Shown here: positions 22,237 to 31,546 of the stretch, piece after piece | How positions within the stretch are numbered: position 1 is the first letter of the stretch | How the letters are laid out: each line of letters opens with the position of its first letter | DNA from: an uncultured Pseudomonadota bacterium | GTDB taxonomy: Bacteria > Pseudomonadota > Alphaproteobacteria > Rs-D84 | Direction of reading: 5' to 3' | Assembly (NCBI GenBank): GCA_902771095.1 | Contig: CACXVH010000013.1 | Span: 1 to 37,505, forward strand | DNA: 37,505 nt | Translations under genes and position numbers: made by a program | The notes under the pieces: generated by a model | Seen by the model: only the letters and a program-made list of their open reading frames with translations | What the model was told of the DNA's origin: nothing | Databases searched by the model: none

Positions 22237-22264
22237 AAACACCGCCAATCGGCGGTGTTTGTTT
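22237..22264. terminator. Bidirectional terminator
   Basis: AAACACCGCC (22237-22246) and GGCGGTGTTT (22251-22260) form a 10-bp stem with an AATC loop, followed by GTTTT. It serves rplI and the convergent 22264 gene. Confidence 0.85.
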
Positions 22265-24252
22265 TACCATTCTATAGCGCAGTATTGCCTTGATAAAGTT
22301 TTTGTTGCGCCGTTACCACTGGAAGAATACACATTATATATGTAAGATTTTTGATTGAACTGCTGCCGAAGTGCGTTATTTAATTCGTTTCTGCATACAT
22401 TGAAATCGATTTCGCAATGTATTCTGGATGCAAGACCTGTGTCTAAATCGGTTTGTTTTTTTCCACCGAATATTTTACAAACTGTCATAGCAATAGATTT
22501 CTTTTGGGTTCTTGGAAAAGATTCTGTTAAATCTTCAAAGAAAAAGTGATAATCAGTATCAGATGTTTTGCAAATTAATTTAGTATTACTTTCTTTCCCA
22601 TTGTCACAATTAAGATTTTTTATACCCCGTTGTTGTGCGTATACTTTTATTAGTTGTTTTGCCTGAGATTCAGTTACCTGGGCATCTTCAAAAGTGCCAT
22701 GTATATATTCAACTTTTTTTCCGTTTTTATTTTTTGATGAAGTTTGTGTTGCTGTTGTATTTGCTCTTTGGGGGCTTGATGTGTTTTTTGAAGAATTTTG
22801 AGATGGTCTTTCTTTGACTTTCTTTTGTTCTGTTTCTTCGGTATCATTAGTGTTTGATTGTGCCTCGTCAGCTTTGGTGTTTTTAGATTTTGTTGTTGAT
22901 GATATATTTGTATCGGGTGAATCAGATTTATTTGTTTCTGTTTTTGATGTGGTATTGCTGTCTCGGTGCGTCGTGGCAGAGCTTGATGTAGCTGTATCGG
23001 TATTTGTGGCAGGATTTGAAGTAGTAGTTACATTAGCAGCAGCGCCAGCAACAGAGGAAACAGCTAAACCTGTACCAACAGAAACATCAGGGGTCTTTAA
23101 ATCCAATTTATTTGGAACCACTTTTCCATTTATAATTGTGTAACCGTTATCAGTCGTAACATCTTCTGATTTAGTTTCATCTTTTTTGACATTATTTTTA
23201 TCTTCTAAAACTTGTATCCCGATTTGTGTTGGGGTATCCAGATTTTTATTTGTGTCGAAAAGATTCAAATCATTTACAGCTGTCCGTGTAGAATTTGGAC
23301 CAGAATTATTTTCTTCTTTGTCATCATCACCGTTGTTGGACAGATTACTTTGTGTACCGAGGTCATCACCATCGTCAGCACCAGGTTGACCAGAATTACC
23401 ATCATTTGACAAAATATTACTATTGTCTTGAGGGGTGGCGGAGTTTCCTTGATTGTTGGGTGTTTGTTGGACAGGTATTGTTTGAACTTCTGTTGTTTTT
23501 TCTTCAAAACATGGTCCGGTTTTTGTGCGCTGTATATATCCGTCTGGGCAATGGCATCGTGCGCCTTGCCATGTTCCACCAGATTCTGTGCAGGTTTGTG
23601 CAGTTTTTGTTGATGAAGATAACGATTGGTTGATTAATTCGTCACCAACGATTCCACCGACTACACCAACACCCGCGGCAACAACGCCACCGATTACACG
23701 TGTTTTGGATGTTTGGGCGGCTTCGTCCAATTGTGTTTGGTCTGATTCAGAACCTAACATTTGTGCGCGATAACGCGAAGCATAATTGCCCGCGGTTATC
23801 CCGACATTTTCATCATCGTATAATCCTATTTGCGATTTGTCCAAGATTTCTTCGCTTTCAATTCCGGGCATCATATTAAGCGCGGTTTTGCGTTCCTTTA
23901 AATCATTTGCCAATGCGGTATATTCACTGCGATATTTCATAAGGTTCGCATCATTGCCACCGGGTAATTCAATTTCGTCCGCACCCGCCTTAACAGATTT
24001 TCCGTTCCCATAAGAACAACGCATAGTTGAAATGTATGCGGACATATCAGCATCAGCCGCCTTGTCTGCCTTTTGTTCAGATAAACCCTGAGCCAATTCC
24101 ATTGTACCAATCCCGGTCGCCGCAGAAGACGCCGAAGTCAAAAGCCGATTCGCCTTGGATTGGCTACTGGCATCGCTGTCGTCAACAGCCAACACTGGCA
24201 TTATATTTAATGTCAAAAATAGGACTGTAAAGATTTTTAATATGTTTTTCAT
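22264..24252 (-). CDS. Large secreted protein with low-complexity Asn/Thr/Ser/Asp region
   Basis: The 662-residue product starts with a signal peptide (MKNILKIFTVLFLTLN, cleavage near IMPVLA). Order: a helical region (about 25-180); a Gly/Val hydrophobic stretch (RVIGGVVAAGVGVVGGIVGD, about 185-204); a Cys unit CTESGGTW ... CHCPDGY (about 220-245) reminiscent of EGF-like stalks; about 270 residues of Asn/Thr/Ser/Asp-rich low complexity; and a folded C-terminal domain (about 530-662) with six Cys. I do not recognise the family. It is the last gene of the three-gene operon, overlapping the 24249 gene by four bases (ATGA). Confidence 0.75.
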   Translation of the reverse strand: MKNILKIFTVLFLTLNIMPVLAVDDSDASSQSKANRLLTSASSAATGIGTMELAQGLSEQKADKAADADMSAYISTMRCSYGNGKSVKAGADEIELPGGNDANLMKYRSEYTALANDLKERKTALNMMPGIESEEILDKSQIGLYDDENVGITAGNYASRYRAQMLGSESDQTQLDEAAQTSKTRVIGGVVAAGVGVVGGIVGDELINQSLSSSTKTAQTCTESGGTWQGARCHCPDGYIQRTKTGPCFEEKTTEVQTIPVQQTPNNQGNSATPQDNSNILSNDGNSGQPGADDGDDLGTQSNLSNNGDDDKEENNSGPNSTRTAVNDLNLFDTNKNLDTPTQIGIQVLEDKNNVKKDETKSEDVTTDNGYTIINGKVVPNKLDLKTPDVSVGTGLAVSSVAGAAANVTTTSNPATNTDTATSSSATTHRDSNTTSKTETNKSDSPDTNISSTTKSKNTKADEAQSNTNDTEETEQKKVKERPSQNSSKNTSSPQRANTTATQTSSKNKNGKKVEYIHGTFEDAQVTESQAKQLIKVYAQQRGIKNLNCDNGKESNTKLICKTSDTDYHFFFEDLTESFPRTQKKSIAMTVCKIFGGKKQTDLDTGLASRIHCEIDFNVCRNELNNALRQQFNQKSYIYNVYSSSGNGATKTLSRQYCAIEW

Positions 24253-25688
24253 TTATAGTTTATGTTTGTCTGTAATTTTTCTAGGTTTTTATTCACTGAT
24301 TCTTCTGCCTTTTGTTGTTCTTGTTTTTGCGTTTCTTTTTGTTTTTCTTTGGTTGCTTTGTTTTCAGAAACCTTGTTTCTTATCCTTTGAATTAAGTTTT
24401 GTTTGTTTGATTCTTCTGATTCAGATTTTTGTTCTTTGGTTTTGTTTTGTTCTGTTTCTTCGTTTTCTGCATTCTTTAATGCGTTCTTTGCCTTGGTTGT
24501 ATCAATTGCGCGTTCGATTGCGCCAGATGATATTGCACCCGCTGCCGTTCCCAAACCAGAACCCAACATCGCAGAAGAGGCGGCTGTTTGTGCGCGTGTT
24601 TCACGATACGCGTTTTCACGATATGTTGTCACGTCTGTGCCGAACCATTCTGGCATACATACAAATGAATCGCCAGCATATGCTTTGCGCGAAGCCATTG
24701 GAGTACTTTGGTTTTCGCCAGCATAAAATTCAATACTGTAAACACAATCAAAAGAACGTTCGTCAAATGTTGCACCCAAAGATTTACAACTTTTTGCCAT
24801 CAAATCACGCAATTCATAAAGACGGCCTTCATCTTTTTTAATATCTATTTCTGCGTTTTCACGCAACTTTCCCATTGCGGTTCCAAAACGCGCGGCCAGC
24901 CCAGAATCACTTTCGCGACATTCAGTTGCGATAATTGAACATTTTTGAATTGCCGCACTTTCCGCCGATTTGCTAAGACATTTATTATATGTTGTTCCAC
25001 ATTCGTTCATAATACATGCGTTGTAATTGTTCCCGCAATCAAGCACCGCATTATAAGATGCAAGAATAACATTCGCATCACGGTCCGCCTTGATTTCCGC
25101 GGTAAACAAGGAAAATTCTTCGCCACTACATTCTGTGTTTTTACGACATCTATTTAATTTATCGCCGAATGCAGTATCGCCATCGGTTGAGCATTTCGTA
25201 AAATCATTTCCACAAAGTTCAGCCATACATTTACGCAAACCAACATCACAGGTATGACTGTTTGCCGCCAATGATTTTTTCTGGGTATCGGTTGTGGCAT
25301 ATGTTGCCTCACTTGCCGCCAAGGCAGCGCGTTGCCGACGAATTTCTTCGGCAAAGGTGTTGTCTGGCAATGCAGATTCCATCACATCAGAAATTGTGTT
25401 TTCAAATTGAATCGATTTGTTTGTAACAATTAATTCTTGTTTTTCAACCTGTTCAACAACTGGTTCTTTGACAGTTTCAGAAGGTTGTGTTTCGGTCACG
25501 GTTTCTGTGGTTGCTGTTGTTGTCGCAACCGTTTTGGTAGTTGTTACATTTTTACGTGTGGTTGGTGTGGAACGCGTTGTTGCGCTGGTTCGTGTGGCTG
25601 CATCTGCAAAATCACAAACCACGAACAGCGAGGCAAATACCGTCGCGGCAGTCATAAATTTTGAAAAAAATCTTTCGTTCTTTTTCAT
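24249..25688 (-). CDS. Secreted Cys-motif protein with two C-x6-C-x4-C-x6-C units
   Basis: The 479-residue product has an N-terminal signal segment (FMTAATVFASLFVVCDFADA, cleavage near residue 30), then a Thr-rich stretch (31-68). Two Cys units follow: C147-x6-C154-M-x3-C-x6-C166 and C218-x6-C225-x4-C230-x6-C237, both with a CGxx(F/Y)xKC end. More Cys pairs come after, then a Gly/Ala-rich hydrophobic segment (about 370-390) and a highly charged coiled-coil tail (about 400-475). This looks like disulfide-stapled helical hairpins on a long stalk; that is inference. It lies 16 bases after the 25705 gene and overlaps the 22264 gene. AAAGGG precedes the ATG. Confidence 0.75.
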   Translation of the reverse strand: MKKNERFFSKFMTAATVFASLFVVCDFADAATRTSATTRSTPTTRKNVTTTKTVATTTATTETVTETQPSETVKEPVVEQVEKQELIVTNKSIQFENTISDVMESALPDNTFAEEIRRQRAALAASEATYATTDTQKKSLAANSHTCDVGLRKCMAELCGNDFTKCSTDGDTAFGDKLNRCRKNTECSGEEFSLFTAEIKADRDANVILASYNAVLDCGNNYNACIMNECGTTYNKCLSKSAESAAIQKCSIIATECRESDSGLAARFGTAMGKLRENAEIDIKKDEGRLYELRDLMAKSCKSLGATFDERSFDCVYSIEFYAGENQSTPMASRKAYAGDSFVCMPEWFGTDVTTYRENAYRETRAQTAASSAMLGSGLGTAAGAISSGAIERAIDTTKAKNALKNAENEETEQNKTKEQKSESEESNKQNLIQRIRNKVSENKATKEKQKETQKQEQQKAEESVNKNLEKLQTNINYK

Positions 25689-25704
25689 TCGCCCTTTGTC
25701 CGTT

Positions 25705-26562
25705 TTATTTCAACCGTTCGCATGCTGTGTCGTGAAATTTACATAATTCGCGCGCGGCTGATTTTTCGTTTTCATTCGCACATTTGTTTCGCATATTGTT
25801 TTCACAAACGCGGTTTATACAATCGTTTGTCGCCTTGTTCCTTTTGCAGCCAGATTGCGCGACAGATAATTTTTGTTCACGATTGCTTTGATATGCAGAA
25901 ACAATGTTTTTTAACAACTTTTCCGCGTTCGCAAAAGAATTCGCACGAAATGATGCCAATGTGTTCTTTATATTAGATAGGTATGATTCACATCCATTTG
26001 ATGCAACAGAACACTGTGAAAAGTAATTATTAAAGTCCGAATCTGATTTACAGTTTTTATAATTCGCAGAACAATGTTTTTCATCCACCATACATGATTC
26101 TATTTCTGTGGCACATGTTGTTTGAGTTTTTGTTGTATTCGCTTTCTTGGCAAGATTTACCATTTCTGCAGATATGCCAGCCGCCCGACACGACTGTTCA
26201 ATCAATTTATCATAATTGTTATCAACATCATCAGTTGTGCAATCTGGTAATTTTTCCAAACATAATCTGGTTCCCCAGGCATATCGTTCGCCTGCACTGG
26301 TTGGCGCGCTTTTTAATTCTTTGTCAGATACAATGTATTTTGATGATACGCCCGCAGATATACTTTTCATTATGCCAGATTTCGATGGTTCCCCGGCAGA
26401 ATTTGTCCCACAATATTGACACCGTGCTGCCGGATTTGCACCAATATTTATCGCACATACAGAATCCAGACATCGCGTTAAATTAGCAACAGAACACGCG
26501 CCAAAAACCAAAGTTGGTGCGAATAACAAATTGACTGATAAAAATAACAAGCGATACTTCAT
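25705..26562 (-). CDS. Secreted Cys-rich protein with the same Cys spacing
   Basis: The 285-residue product has a signal peptide (MKYRLLFLSVNLLFAPTLVF, cleavage after about GA22). The mature part carries about 20 Cys: C23-x7-C31-x4-C36 at the start, C150-x6-C157-M-x5-C164-x6-C171 in the middle, and C248-x4-C253-x7-C261 near the end. These match or nearly match the spacing in the 24249 and 16399 proteins. It is otherwise Asn/Lys/Ser rich and helical, with no domain I recognise. It is first in the operon, with promoter at 26580-26608 and an AGAGAGAG site before the ATG. Confidence 0.75.
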   Translation of the reverse strand: MKYRLLFLSVNLLFAPTLVFGACSVANLTRCLDSVCAINIGANPAARCQYCGTNSAGEPSKSGIMKSISAGVSSKYIVSDKELKSAPTSAGERYAWGTRLCLEKLPDCTTDDVDNNYDKLIEQSCRAAGISAEMVNLAKKANTTKTQTTCATEIESCMVDEKHCSANYKNCKSDSDFNNYFSQCSVASNGCESYLSNIKNTLASFRANSFANAEKLLKNIVSAYQSNREQKLSVAQSGCKRNKATNDCINRVCENNMRNKCANENEKSAARELCKFHDTACERLK

Positions 26563-26672: not shown

Positions 26673-26696
26673 TTTTTTAAGAAGGGAAAGGTTTTA

Positions 26697-29600
26697 ATGA
26701 AATTTATTAGATTTCTGGGACTTTTGTGGTTTTTGATACCATGCGTGATGGCTGATGCCATCGCTGGTGAATTTCAAGATGCGTCAAAATTATTGGTTGC
26801 TGCGCGTCGTGGTGATATCCAGACAGTTCAAGTTTTAATCAATTCTGGGGTTGATGTTAATTATGTTGATTCAACAGGATTGTCTTTGGTGTGTACTGCG
26901 GTTATGAACAATGACAGACGCGCGATTCAGGTTTTACAAATGTATGGGGCAGATGCGTCAAATTGTGATAAACAAATAAAACAATATCAGGAAAAAACAC
27001 GACGCGCGGCTAAGGGCGAAGAATACGGATTTTTCAGTGGACTTTCATCAACACATACAATTGTTTTATCCGCAGTTGGTGTTGCCGCAGTCATTGGTGG
27101 GGTCGTATTGTTGACTAATGTTTTTGATAATGATAGTGGGCATCATTCTTCTGAATCAAGTGGCGACAGACCAAATAATAATGATAACGAAGGTGGTTCT
27201 TCGGTAACAACAACGAAATTGTTTGCACAAAATTTACCTGTTGGACCGGGGGCTTGTACAGGGACAAATTGTTCGGCAGAATATCCAACATGGGAAGGTA
27301 TGCAAGATTTTGATTATATGTCTGATAATACGACCCAAGATACTTTTAATTATTTAATGGTGGCACATGCCTATGATGCTTTTGCACGTGGATATTTGGG
27401 AATGGGGACAATAAGATTGGCCAGTGACTTATCCCCATTTGATTTGGCTTCATTACCATATACTTCTGTCCCTGGCGGGGGCAGTCCGATGAATGTTGCA
27501 ATGGTGACAGGGACAGGTGTGAATACCACCACGGGTACTAGTGCAGTTGATGGAACGATAACTTGGGTCGATTCAACTCAGATTCCAACGCTTCAATCGA
27601 TATGCGCGCAAAATGGTTCTGAATCAACCGAATGTCAAAATGCGTTGGCTGCGGCGACCAAGGTTTCGCATAAATATTATAATAATGAAACGGGGTCTGA
27701 AAATACCGCTTTTGATTTATCTGGTGGCGACACTGTGTTTGGTTCGGCATCTGATGAAGATACTAAATTGGCAAAAATTATCGCCGGCTGGGAAGAGGGC
27801 GGACGTGCCACTGGTGATTTTTATGGTTTTATTCCAAATGGTCAATTAACCGTCTATAAAACGGGGGCTGGTAATGTGTGGGCGGCACCTGCGACTTCTT
27901 CTGTTACGGGTTCTTATACGATGGCTGGAACATCTGTGGCGGTTAATGATACATTTACTTTGGCGAATGGGGTTGTGTTAACTGTGACTTCGGTATCTGG
28001 GGACAATTTTGTCGCCACAGGTGCTGGAAAAACATATCATGGCTTTATTAATGGGACCGACCTTTATGTAGATTCCAAGGCAAATGGTGTTTTCAATCAA
28101 GAATATGAAATTGGTTTCGGAAATTCCTTGACCTTGACCCAGGAATTGACTGATTACAGAAATTATGCTGCGATGTATGATGCACTGCGATTGCAAGATT
28201 CTGGTAATTATGTGACACGTGTCGTGGCGAATTTGTCTTTGCCGACTGCGGCGACTAATTTGGGCTATTCAACGATTGATGATGCAAAGATTTTAAACGA
28301 AGCAGCATCCACAGATGTATTGAAAAAGGGTGTGTTTTTGGGACTTGTCGATAATTACTATAATTTTAATACTTCGGATGACAGTGCCACATATACTTTG
28401 CCATCTGGGGTGGTGGTAAGTGGTTCTCAATCTGCTAATGCTGGGTTGACATTTGAATATCTTGGAAATTATCAAAAACAGATTTTGGTGAATCCAGCAG
28501 GGCGGACTTTGTATGGTGTTGGAACCGGCAAATCATTAAGTCCTGTGGTTGCGACTTTTGAAAATTTTGCGCCGGCTGTGTATAATGATTTGCAGAATTT
28601 ATTTATGACAGTTGTTGCTGTGCGTCCTGGGGCAACTACGGGGACAAGCGATGAAACTATTGATGGTTATTCTGCGGCAAATGTTGGAACATTAAAGTTG
28701 TCCACTTGGGAAGATCCGAACGATAGTTCTATTATTTATCAATCGCGTATTTGCGGATTGGCTGGGACTGGCAATGGCGGTGCGATGAATCCATGGTGTT
28801 TTGCGGCGCCTGGGGTCACAGATTTAGAAGCAACTGCGGCGATGGCTGGTTCGGTTGCGCTGGTCAAAAGCGCATTTGATTATATGACACCAAAAGAAGT
28901 ATTTTTGTTGTTGGCATTAACTGCGGACGGACCGTATCTTGGAACAAATCCCAGTACAAAATTAAAATGGGAAAAAACGGCAGATTTGATAACTTATTTA
29001 AAAGGAATTTATACTTTGCCGACAGAAGTATCTGATTTGGCATATTTATCAGAATTCAAAAATGTTTTTGGATATGGGGTTATAAATATTGAACGCGCAA
29101 CAAGACCTGGAACGAATATTTATTTTTACAATTCTGATAAAGAAACAATAGTGTCGGGAAACAATAACGCATATTGGGGAAACGGCACAACAAGTGGGAA
29201 TCCACGCGCTTCATCTGTGTTGTCTTTGACAGGAAATGGCGCAATAATGGCTTCATTTTATGATGTGTTGGAAAGTGCCGATGGAACGATAACTTTGCCA
29301 CGTGTTTGGAATATGAATTTTTCAGATAACAATGATTCAAAGCACGGTCTTTATATGGGTGATGTGTTGGCTGATTTTGTTGTTGATTCCACAAATAAAA
29401 AGTCAAATCAAATTGGAAATATGACTGTTGATATGGCTTTGTCTTCGCGTGCTTATAATGATAATTTGAATGGTTTGGATAATTTGCGTGTCGCATTTAC
29501 AAATGAAAAATATGATGTATCCGCAGAATATCAACACTATTTGACAGATGGTGAATCAAGATTTTCTGGTCGCGCAAATGGTGTATTGTCGTTGGTTGCG

Positions 29601-30350
29601 AATTCTGTGGGAAGTTCTGCGAAATATAAATCTGGAAAATTTGCATTTGGCGGTCGCGCTTTTTCTGGAATCATTACTGACGAGGGGTTGTTAGAAAATG
29701 ACCCGACCATTTCATCGCAATTTGAACCGGCGCGTCTTGGGTTGGCAAATGGTACAGCAATGGATACAGAATATAAAACGGATAAATTCTTGTTTAATGT
29801 TGCTGTTGGTAATTTACATGAAACAAATACCGTCCTTGGAATGTACAGCGATGGTATTTTGACCATGCGTGGTGGTGATACACAATATATTGATGTTGTA
29901 ACAGAATACAAACCATTTGAAAATGTAAAGTTATCGGCGCGTGGAACATTTGCGAACACTCATGTTGACACAATTGGTGGTTTAATCAGTGATGTTTCTG
30001 ATATAAAATCTAATGCCTTTGCGTTGGGGGCAGATGTTGGTGGTTTTGGTTTTACTGTGGCATTACCTTTGGCAACGGTTGGGGGGCGTGTTGGATATGA
30101 CTATGCTGAATACAATGTTGTTGAAAATAATGGCAGTTACGAAGTTGTAATGAATAATCCACACATAGAATACATTGATTTGGCAAAACAAAAACGCGAA
30201 TTAAGATTTTCTTCATCTTATAAATATGCGATTGGCGATTGGACGGACGCGGGTGTTGGTTTTATATATCGTGTGAATCCAAACAATACAGATTCATTTG
30301 GGAATGAATCTATATTTATGTTCAAATTACATCACAGATTGGGGATATAG
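26697..30350 (+). CDS. Ankyrin-degenerate subtilase autotransporter (probable pseudo-protease)
   Basis: The 1217-residue product: signal peptide 1-19; ankyrin-like repeats about 24-90 (LLVAARRGDIQTVQVLINSG); a second hydrophobic segment 119-142; an Asp/Asn/Ser linker; a subtilase-like passenger about 195-805; and a C-terminal beta-barrel about 910-1217. The S8 scaffold is seen in GYLGMGTIRLASDL (D244 retained), GFIPNGQLTVYK, NPWCFAAPG (699-706) and FGYGVINIERA (791-801). The GTHVAG motif is replaced by DTKLAK, putting Lys357 at the His position. The GTSMAAP motif is lost, with Leu710 at the Ser position by alignment from ALVK. Proteolysis is therefore unlikely. It is monocistronic. Confidence 0.75.
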   Translation: MKFIRFLGLLWFLIPCVMADAIAGEFQDASKLLVAARRGDIQTVQVLINSGVDVNYVDSTGLSLVCTAVMNNDRRAIQVLQMYGADASNCDKQIKQYQEKTRRAAKGEEYGFFSGLSSTHTIVLSAVGVAAVIGGVVLLTNVFDNDSGHHSSESSGDRPNNNDNEGGSSVTTTKLFAQNLPVGPGACTGTNCSAEYPTWEGMQDFDYMSDNTTQDTFNYLMVAHAYDAFARGYLGMGTIRLASDLSPFDLASLPYTSVPGGGSPMNVAMVTGTGVNTTTGTSAVDGTITWVDSTQIPTLQSICAQNGSESTECQNALAAATKVSHKYYNNETGSENTAFDLSGGDTVFGSASDEDTKLAKIIAGWEEGGRATGDFYGFIPNGQLTVYKTGAGNVWAAPATSSVTGSYTMAGTSVAVNDTFTLANGVVLTVTSVSGDNFVATGAGKTYHGFINGTDLYVDSKANGVFNQEYEIGFGNSLTLTQELTDYRNYAAMYDALRLQDSGNYVTRVVANLSLPTAATNLGYSTIDDAKILNEAASTDVLKKGVFLGLVDNYYNFNTSDDSATYTLPSGVVVSGSQSANAGLTFEYLGNYQKQILVNPAGRTLYGVGTGKSLSPVVATFENFAPAVYNDLQNLFMTVVAVRPGATTGTSDETIDGYSAANVGTLKLSTWEDPNDSSIIYQSRICGLAGTGNGGAMNPWCFAAPGVTDLEATAAMAGSVALVKSAFDYMTPKEVFLLLALTADGPYLGTNPSTKLKWEKTADLITYLKGIYTLPTEVSDLAYLSEFKNVFGYGVINIERATRPGTNIYFYNSDKETIVSGNNNAYWGNGTTSGNPRASSVLSLTGNGAIMASFYDVLESADGTITLPRVWNMNFSDNNDSKHGLYMGDVLADFVVDSTNKKSNQIGNMTVDMALSSRAYNDNLNGLDNLRVAFTNEKYDVSAEYQHYLTDGESRFSGRANGVLSLVANSVGSSAKYKSGKFAFGGRAFSGIITDEGLLENDPTISSQFEPARLGLANGTAMDTEYKTDKFLFNVAVGNLHETNTVLGMYSDGILTMRGGDTQYIDVVTEYKPFENVKLSARGTFANTHVDTIGGLISDVSDIKSNAFALGADVGGFGFTVALPLATVGGRVGYDYAEYNVVENNGSYEVVMNNPHIEYIDLAKQKRELRFSSSYKYAIGDWTDAGVGFIYRVNPNNTDSFGNESIFMFKLHHRLGI

Positions 30351-30378: not shown

Positions 30379-30431
30379 TTTGGAATAGGTTCTTATAGTT
30401 TTCGTGTGTGATTCGTGTAAAAATTAAAAAC

Positions 30432-31514
30432 ATGAAGACGAAAAATTTAAATCTTTTATTAGTGATGATGTTGGCGATTGTTGGCATTAACACGCGTGCC
30501 AATTCCTGTACGGGAATTTCATTAAATTCAACAGATGGGGCGCACATTGTTGCGCGAACAGTCGAATGGGCATCTGGCGAAAGCCCAAGTGATTATTTGA
30601 TTGTCCCCGAAGGTTTTGAAAAACAATCTATGTTGCCGGACGGTAAACGCGGTGGGATGAAATATACTGCGTTTTATGGCTATGTCGGTTTGGCATCCGA
30701 AGATTATGTTATCGAAGGGTTGAATGAGGCAGGGTTGTCTGCGGGACTATTTTATTTCCCGCATGTTGGTTCTTATCCAAAATATGATGCGTCACTTAAT
30801 GATATAACAATTTCAGATACCGAATTTGTCGCATGGATGCTTGGCAATTTTGAAACTGTGGAAGATGTGATTGCTGCATTAAGCAATATTCGTGTGGTCG
30901 CAACCGATTCGCGTGCGCAAAATCTTCATTGGAGAGTTGCTGATAAATATGGTCGACAAATAGTTATCGAATATATTGATGGTCTTGCGACTGTGCATGA
31001 AAACAAATTGGGTGTATTGACTAATTCGCCACAATACGATTGGCATATTACAAATTTGAATAATTATATCAATTTGAAACCAGGGACGGATACGTCACAT
31101 GAATTTGGTAATATAACATTATCGCCAATTGGGCATGGTTCGAATATGCTGGGATTACCTGGTGACTTTACACCACCATCAAGATTTGTTCGGGTTGCGT
31201 TTTATCAAACATCAGCGCCAGTTTTGGCAAACGCAGAAGAAGCGGTGAACCAAGCATTTACAATATTGGAAGCGATGACGATTCCAATCGGTGTTCAATA
31301 TAGTGATAAAACAAAAATACCGAATATTCCAAGTGCGACCCAGTGGACATCTGTCACAGATATGACGAACAACAGAATTTATTATACAACAATGTATAAT
31401 CCGGTTATTCGAAAGTTTGATTTAAAAGAAATTGACTTTGCGAATGTTAAATACCAGCAACATCCATTGGATATGGTAAAGATGCGACCGATGGTTGATG
31501 CCGAGGTGGATTAA
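30432..31514 (+). CDS. Choloylglycine hydrolase family (bile salt hydrolase/penicillin V acylase-like), secreted
   Basis: An Ntn-hydrolase that cleaves linear amides such as conjugated bile acids, penicillin V or acyl-homoserine lactones. With the ATG at 30432 it has 360 residues: a signal peptide (about 1-25) followed by C26, which becomes the catalytic N-terminal nucleophile. CTGISL ... ARTVEW places Arg at mature position 17 and Glu at 20, where Bacillus penicillin V acylase has Asp; ARTxEW variants are common. TNSPQYDWH supplies the conserved Asn, PPSRFVR the later Arg. All key residues are present. An in-frame start eight codons upstream is possible. Export to the periplasm is inferred. 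Substrate is unknown. Confidence 0.88.
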   Translation: MKTKNLNLLLVMMLAIVGINTRANSCTGISLNSTDGAHIVARTVEWASGESPSDYLIVPEGFEKQSMLPDGKRGGMKYTAFYGYVGLASEDYVIEGLNEAGLSAGLFYFPHVGSYPKYDASLNDITISDTEFVAWMLGNFETVEDVIAALSNIRVVATDSRAQNLHWRVADKYGRQIVIEYIDGLATVHENKLGVLTNSPQYDWHITNLNNYINLKPGTDTSHEFGNITLSPIGHGSNMLGLPGDFTPPSRFVRVAFYQTSAPVLANAEEAVNQAFTILEAMTIPIGVQYSDKTKIPNIPSATQWTSVTDMTNNRIYYTTMYNPVIRKFDLKEIDFANVKYQQHPLDMVKMRPMVDAEVD

Positions 31515-31519
31515 AAAAT

Positions 31520-31546
31520 ACCCGCATCTGCGGGTGTTTTTATTTT
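31520..31546 (+). terminator. Terminator of the hydrolase gene
   Basis: ACCCGC (31520-31525) and GCGGGT (31530-31535) with an ATCT loop, followed by GTTTTTATTTT. Confidence 0.8.

Follow-up and report, generated by a model that had tools for sequence, protein, structure and literature searches.

A maintained subtilase-like gene with a degenerate active site in an alphaproteobacterial genome: a candidate surface binding scaffold

A long open reading frame on the forward strand of the window (the whole stretch of 37,505 nucleotides of DNA that was analyzed here) raises the question of why a bacterium should keep a gene for a protein that is built like a subtilase autotransporter but lacks the residues of a protease. 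The gene, here termed pseudo-subtilase, covers positions 26697..30350 (+), encodes an autotransporter-like protein of 1217 amino acids and has homologues in 176 of the 183 genomes of its family. Its frame runs from an ATG at 26697 to the stop at 30350 with 1217 codons open without a break, in keeping with the intact frame of 3.6 kb given in a preliminary description of the locus, and a purine-rich stretch read directly from the sequence and resembling a ribosome-binding site precedes the ATG (26680..26691, +). In the window's own genome (0.82 Mb, 92.5% complete) the gene is present as a single copy. The preliminary description had interpreted the product as a dead subtilase with an autotransporter barrel and a binding, adhesive or decoy role; its observation proved real in part and its interpretation was supported in part, while the residue register and the statement on the barrel had to be corrected.

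Several modules can be distinguished in the deduced protein. The N-terminus resembles a signal peptide as judged by eye from the sequence (residues 1-26; 26697..26774, +) and is followed by a pair of ankyrin-like repeats that contain Cys66 and Cys90 (residues 29-92; 26781..26972, +). The presence of ankyrin repeats is indicated by the match of residues 32-80 to Pfam Ank_4 (27.1 bits, cut-off 22.7), and the Cys pair was found in 131 of 133 aligned proteins. A hydrophobic helix rich in Gly and Ala (residues 121-140; 27057..27116, +) was located by the most hydrophobic 19-mers, which start at residues 120-125; the preliminary description had mentioned neither the repeats nor this helix. The subtilase-like passenger spans residues 171-815 (27207..29141, +) and contains an inserted segment (residues 393-484; 27873..28148, +), which is missing from 20 of 130 orthologues. 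The chain ends with a C-terminal domain that is presumed to be an outer-membrane barrel (residues 900-1217; 29394..30347, +).

Direct Pfam, NCBIfam and PDB searches with the pseudo-subtilase returned no PF00082 match of its own and gave the ankyrin match and a weak mycosin match instead. With hhalign, a profile of 52 orthologues matched 21 S8 autotransporter-like paralogues at 98.3% (E 2e-14), in the C-terminal half only. For the paralogue alignment 21 of 31 loci were used; the ten omitted loci comprised four without a listed match to the S8 protein of the window's own genome (L002), three with an internal Met as their start, and three set aside to limit the size of the set. The segments NPWCFAAPG and FGYGVINIERA can be aligned by profile comparison to the C-terminal half of the intact S8 paralogue family of the same genome, and these two together with GFIPNGQLTVYK, which had been named as retained scaffold landmarks, are all present and have counterparts in sister-family proteins. 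A small number of orthologues score above the PF00082 cut-off on their own (in genomes G042 and G083), others match more weakly. The strongest evidence for a subtilase descent comes from L103, L104 and L105, co-orthologous proteins of two sister families (genomes G197, G200 and G199 of the same order), which match PF00082 at 86, 58 and 77 bits, have the ankyrin N-terminus in common with the pseudo-subtilase and carry a homologous C-terminal domain (hhalign 99.2%, E 6e-20). Judged by profiles and by these orthologues and S8-positive sister proteins as intermediates, the pseudo-subtilase is a homologue of the peptidases of family S8. A chance resemblance in a decaying gene without any relation to subtilases could be argued from the missing PF00082 match of the query and from AF2, which yielded no fold from shallow alignments of 17 rows (two models, pLDDT 35.6 and 34.4). 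It is already contradicted by the E-value of the profile match, by the ankyrin and C-terminal domains shared with the sister proteins, by the orthologues above the cut-off and by omega values well below 1 (see below), and is regarded as barely credible.

In subtilases, the first His of the HGTHVAG motif serves as the catalytic one (PROSITE). The registers of Asp, His and Ser were read motif by motif, because in a global MAFFT alignment the family and sister proteins are out of register in the middle of the passenger, and were fixed by the sister proteins, in which VAIVD-TAGVD corresponds to VAMVT-GTGVN of the query. Column counts refer to 130 aligned family orthologues out of the 176 genomes with a match; the duplicate rows L121 and L122 were removed, and the L016 sequence is incomplete. 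The catalytic Asp position is held by Thr271 (27507..27509, +), with Thr in 122 and Ser in 8 of the 130 orthologues and Asp in none, and the catalytic His position by Glu354 (27756..27758, +), with His in 0/130. Leu710 (28824..28826, +) stands at the catalytic Ser position, a column with Glu in 96/130, Leu in 12/130 and Ser in one orthologue only (L150). At the position of the oxyanion Asn, Arg603 was found (28503..28505, +); the orthologues have A, E, G, D, R, H, S, Y or W there and Asn in no case out of 130. With Thr271, Glu354, Leu710 and Arg603, the triad and the oxyanion Asn of an active S8 peptidase are absent, and a loss of protease activity is putatively assigned on these grounds.

The preliminary description had noted the lack of the catalytic His and Ser, which holds for the query and, apart from the Ser of a single orthologue, for the aligned family proteins, and its view of a dead subtilase is even exceeded, as the Asp and the oxyanion Asn are gone too. 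It had designated Asp244 as the catalytic Asp; this position is Thr271, and Asp244 was found in 19 of 130 orthologues only. Lys357, placed by it at the catalytic His, aligns with the second His of HGTHVAG. Its assignment of Leu710 to the Ser position agrees with counting back from the following Gly and is weakened by a shortened loop and an hhalign gap at this site.

In the sister proteins the degeneration is less advanced. The catalytic Asp column has Asp in L103 and L105 and Gly in L104, the His column reads F/Y/F and the Ser column A/G/A (L103/L104/L105), and the oxyanion Asn is kept in all three (STGND, SAGNE). By these columns, the dead group as a whole lacks His and Ser, whereas the loss of Asp and Asn applies to the window's family, with L104 lacking Asp as well. 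The passengers of L103 and L104 additionally contain DxDxDG-like stretches, possibly calcium-binding, inserted ahead of the old Ser motif.

Positions adjoining the old active site have become newly conserved in the family. Lys360 (27774..27776, +), at the last Gly of HGTHVAG, is Lys in 123 of 130 orthologues, and an acidic residue is present at 709-711 in 126 of 130. Speculatively, these residues may be joined by a salt bridge within the dead cleft. The same two residues, both next to former active-site positions, could also be the core of a cleft that was rebuilt as a different enzyme with a new catalytic activity, and the strong conservation of the passenger, unusual for a pure spacer, would fit with this. 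However, the exact place of the acid shifts among 709, 710 and 711, a structural salt bridge accounts equally for the pattern, and the sequence suggests no known chemistry; a new activity is considered improbable.

A profile of L103-L105 found matches in 81 of the 385 genomes sampled from the class, and 18 regions from the matched genomes were retrieved for inspection. Six of these regions (L215, L216, L217, L220, L223 and L225), all from other alphaproteobacterial families, encode proteins of the same layout. These begin with an ankyrin-like part containing a Cys pair, continue with a hydrophobic helix rich in Gly and an S8 domain, and end in a C-terminal domain that is homologous to its counterpart in the query, but their Asp, His and Ser are in place. 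Their ankyrin region exceeded the Pfam cut-off in L216, matched weakly in L223 and was recognized in the other four from profile matches or by eye. The two cysteines are spaced by 25 residues in all six intact relatives and by 24 residues in the query and in L103-L105. The retention of this pair, including in the intact relatives, suggests a disulfide and hence an exported ankyrin module, which is likely disulfide-bonded. A tree was calculated from 20 of 130 family proteins, all three sister proteins, all six ankyrin-S8 proteins, 6 of 12 other class regions and 6 of 21 paralogues. In this tree the dead group is placed on one branch (support 94/84), and parsimony requires one change from the intact to the dead state; in the AU test a grouping of f5/f6 with the intact proteins was not rejected (p 0.278), so that there may have been two independent losses. 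Most likely, as far as can be told from the sequences, the ancestor of the pseudo-subtilase was a functional ankyrin-subtilase with the same layout.

The distribution and substitution pattern of the gene point to its maintenance. Outside the 176 of 183 family genomes, matches were weak and limited to 3 of 18 other genomes of the order, and a search of the phage collection gave no match. In six orthologue pairs dN/dS ratios of 0.125-0.197 were determined for the whole gene and of 0.12-0.24 for the passenger (NG86, with dS partly high), which indicates purifying selection. The dN/dS test proposed in the preliminary description was thereby carried out, and its judgement that the gene is maintained and not decaying is upheld by these ratios and by the presence across the family. 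Together with the column counts, the gene shows the combination that characterizes a pseudoprotease, namely a maintained gene with a degenerate active site.

The proposed search for an active paralogue yielded one separate S8 protein in the window's own genome, L002, which is active-looking by its intact motifs (D, HG, GTSFAAP). With such a paralogue at hand, the pseudo-subtilase could act as its regulator or chaperone and bind it to control folding or activity, similar to CspC and CspA with CspB in Clostridioides difficile, where CspC keeps the Asp and has Thr and Gly at the His and Ser positions (PMC6636752). However, of the 72 family genomes in which PF00082 has no match, 69 nevertheless contain the pseudo-subtilase gene, which is therefore not tied to an active subtilase, and this argues against an obligate protease partner. 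Conversely, G015, G033, G113 and G158 have an S8 match without a pseudo-subtilase gene, and in the window's genome the two genes lie on different contigs (C13 and C20). A regulatory role towards the paralogue is accordingly rated as quite unlikely. A second S8-like family of approximately 370-415 amino acids was also observed in family genomes (e.g. G116:C29, G151:C2, G112:C32 and G180:C26) and matches PF00082 mainly at positions 1-145 and approximately 220-280.

In contrast to the complete barrel stated in the preliminary description, PF03797 gave no match at the pseudo-subtilase gene, though this family was found elsewhere in the same genome. The C-terminal domain is homologous to the C-terminal domains of the intact S8 proteins of the class (hhalign 99.7%) and to those of the own paralogue family (97.3%), while controls with reversed sequences reached 0.1-0.6%, with 0.1% against the class set. 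Against 16 PF03797 barrels from these genomes no profile relation was detectable (0.6%). The term autotransporter is thus an inference from the position and the company of the C-terminal domain. Beta-amphipathicity had a mean z of 0.5 over 26 family members and of 2.0 over the 16 PF03797 controls, which gives no clear indication for or against a barrel. Comparisons of orthologue pairs further revealed islands of near-identity at codons 520-760 (L005/L016) and 632-812 (L011/L045) amid 10-42% nucleotide difference, a mosaic structure that probably results from recombination or gene conversion, and a hypervariable stretch at approximately 420-610 was seen in several pairs. The islands, the hypervariable stretch and the insert missing from some orthologues fit a recombining, exposed protein, without constituting proof.

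We slightly favor the view that the pseudo-subtilase is a secreted, surface-displayed pseudoprotease that serves as a binding scaffold and binds rather than cuts. This reading takes together the absent triad residues, the relatives with an intact triad, the low omega, the near-universal presence in the family and the independence of an active subtilase. The signal peptide would send the protein to the periplasm, with the ankyrin module, likely disulfide-bonded, and the hydrophobic helix at the head of the chain and the degenerate subtilase domain as passenger, and the C-terminal domain would presumably form the outer-membrane pore. The remodelled cleft, together with the variable insert, would hold a ligand, such as a peptide, a host glycoprotein or the surface of a partner cell, and leave it uncut. 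Export, surface position, barrel and binding role are all inferred; a binding or adhesive role is a plausible candidate function. In a more extended scenario, which taken as a whole is tentative and rather unlikely, an exported ankyrin-subtilase that still works in other alphaproteobacteria would have been turned stepwise into an obligatory surface receptor in a genome-reduced gut order: His and Ser would have been lost first and Asp and the oxyanion Asn later, the cleft would have been closed by the new Lys-acid pair, the insert and the middle of the passenger would diversify by recombination, and the protein could be a contact protein attaching auxotrophic cells to a partner.

A role is known for few subtilisin-like pseudoproteases, of which the literature searches gave CspA/CspC and PIMMS2. 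In the following comparisons the subtilase fold of the pseudo-subtilase is putative. S8 subtilase autotransporters such as Ssp of Serratia marcescens consist of a passenger of the subtilase type and, behind it, an outer-membrane domain at the C-terminus, as is presumed for the query, which differs in lacking the triad and the oxyanion Asn, in adding the ankyrin module and the helix and in having a C-terminal domain outside PF03797 (PMC9977779). CspC and CspA of C. difficile are subtilisin-like proteins with a degenerate triad that are nevertheless kept, with an inserted beta domain in CspC; the CspC pattern of a kept Asp with lost His and Ser is repeated in the sister proteins L103 and L105, whereas CspC is a soluble spore protein and the query looks exported, with an outer-membrane domain and with the Asp lost in the window's family (PMC6636752). 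PIMMS2 of Plasmodium is likewise a subtilisin-like pseudoenzyme that is exported and whose various orthologues lack triad residues, but it is eukaryotic and has a transmembrane domain and a C-terminal extension; P. berghei PIMMS2 retains its residues at the positions of D, H and S, but not the HGT and GTS motifs (PMC5520436). Among the titles and abstract openings searched, none described an inactive-subtilase or pseudoprotease autotransporter or a protein combining ankyrin, autotransporter and peptidase S8. As intact, half-dismantled and fully dismantled forms of one layout occur within one class, the order of loss and the newly conserved residues can be studied directly. For Rs-D84/Candidatus Enterousia, uncharacterised membrane-bound proteins are described, with transport or cell-to-cell contact as their possible functions (PMC12306168); if the organism belongs to this group, as is probable from its genome size, class and gut source, the pseudo-subtilase is a candidate for one of these proteins.

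A gene of the choloylglycine hydrolase family (30408..31514, +) begins 57 bp downstream of the pseudo-subtilase gene, and a terminator-like hairpin of 12 pairs starts at its stop codon (31514-31541). The choloylglycine hydrolase family also holds acylases that are not specific for bile, which speaks against deriving from this neighbor that the pseudo-subtilase senses a bile acid or another small molecule. Such a sensor would fit the close spacing with the hairpin behind the hydrolase gene and the proposal that the pseudoprotease CspC is the bile-acid receptor of C. difficile (PMC6636752). However, no hydrolase gene was detected within the 1.5-kb flanks of L017-L020, L023, L024 and L031 or in the shorter flanks of L103-L105, and in L026 it has the opposite orientation. 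Since it was not seen in several of the 1.5-kb flanks, the link to the pseudo-subtilase is not general, and a bile-acid sensor is rated as very improbable. In near relatives, the hydrolase gene and an upstream gene for a Cys-rich, secreted-looking protein (25705-26562) each occurred in 15 of the 16 loci, and in the one remaining case the locus stops short of the gene. On the other side of the pseudo-subtilase gene, three adjacent secreted-looking genes without a Pfam match, one of them Cys-rich, are located at 22264-26562 (-) and are conserved upstream in near relatives.
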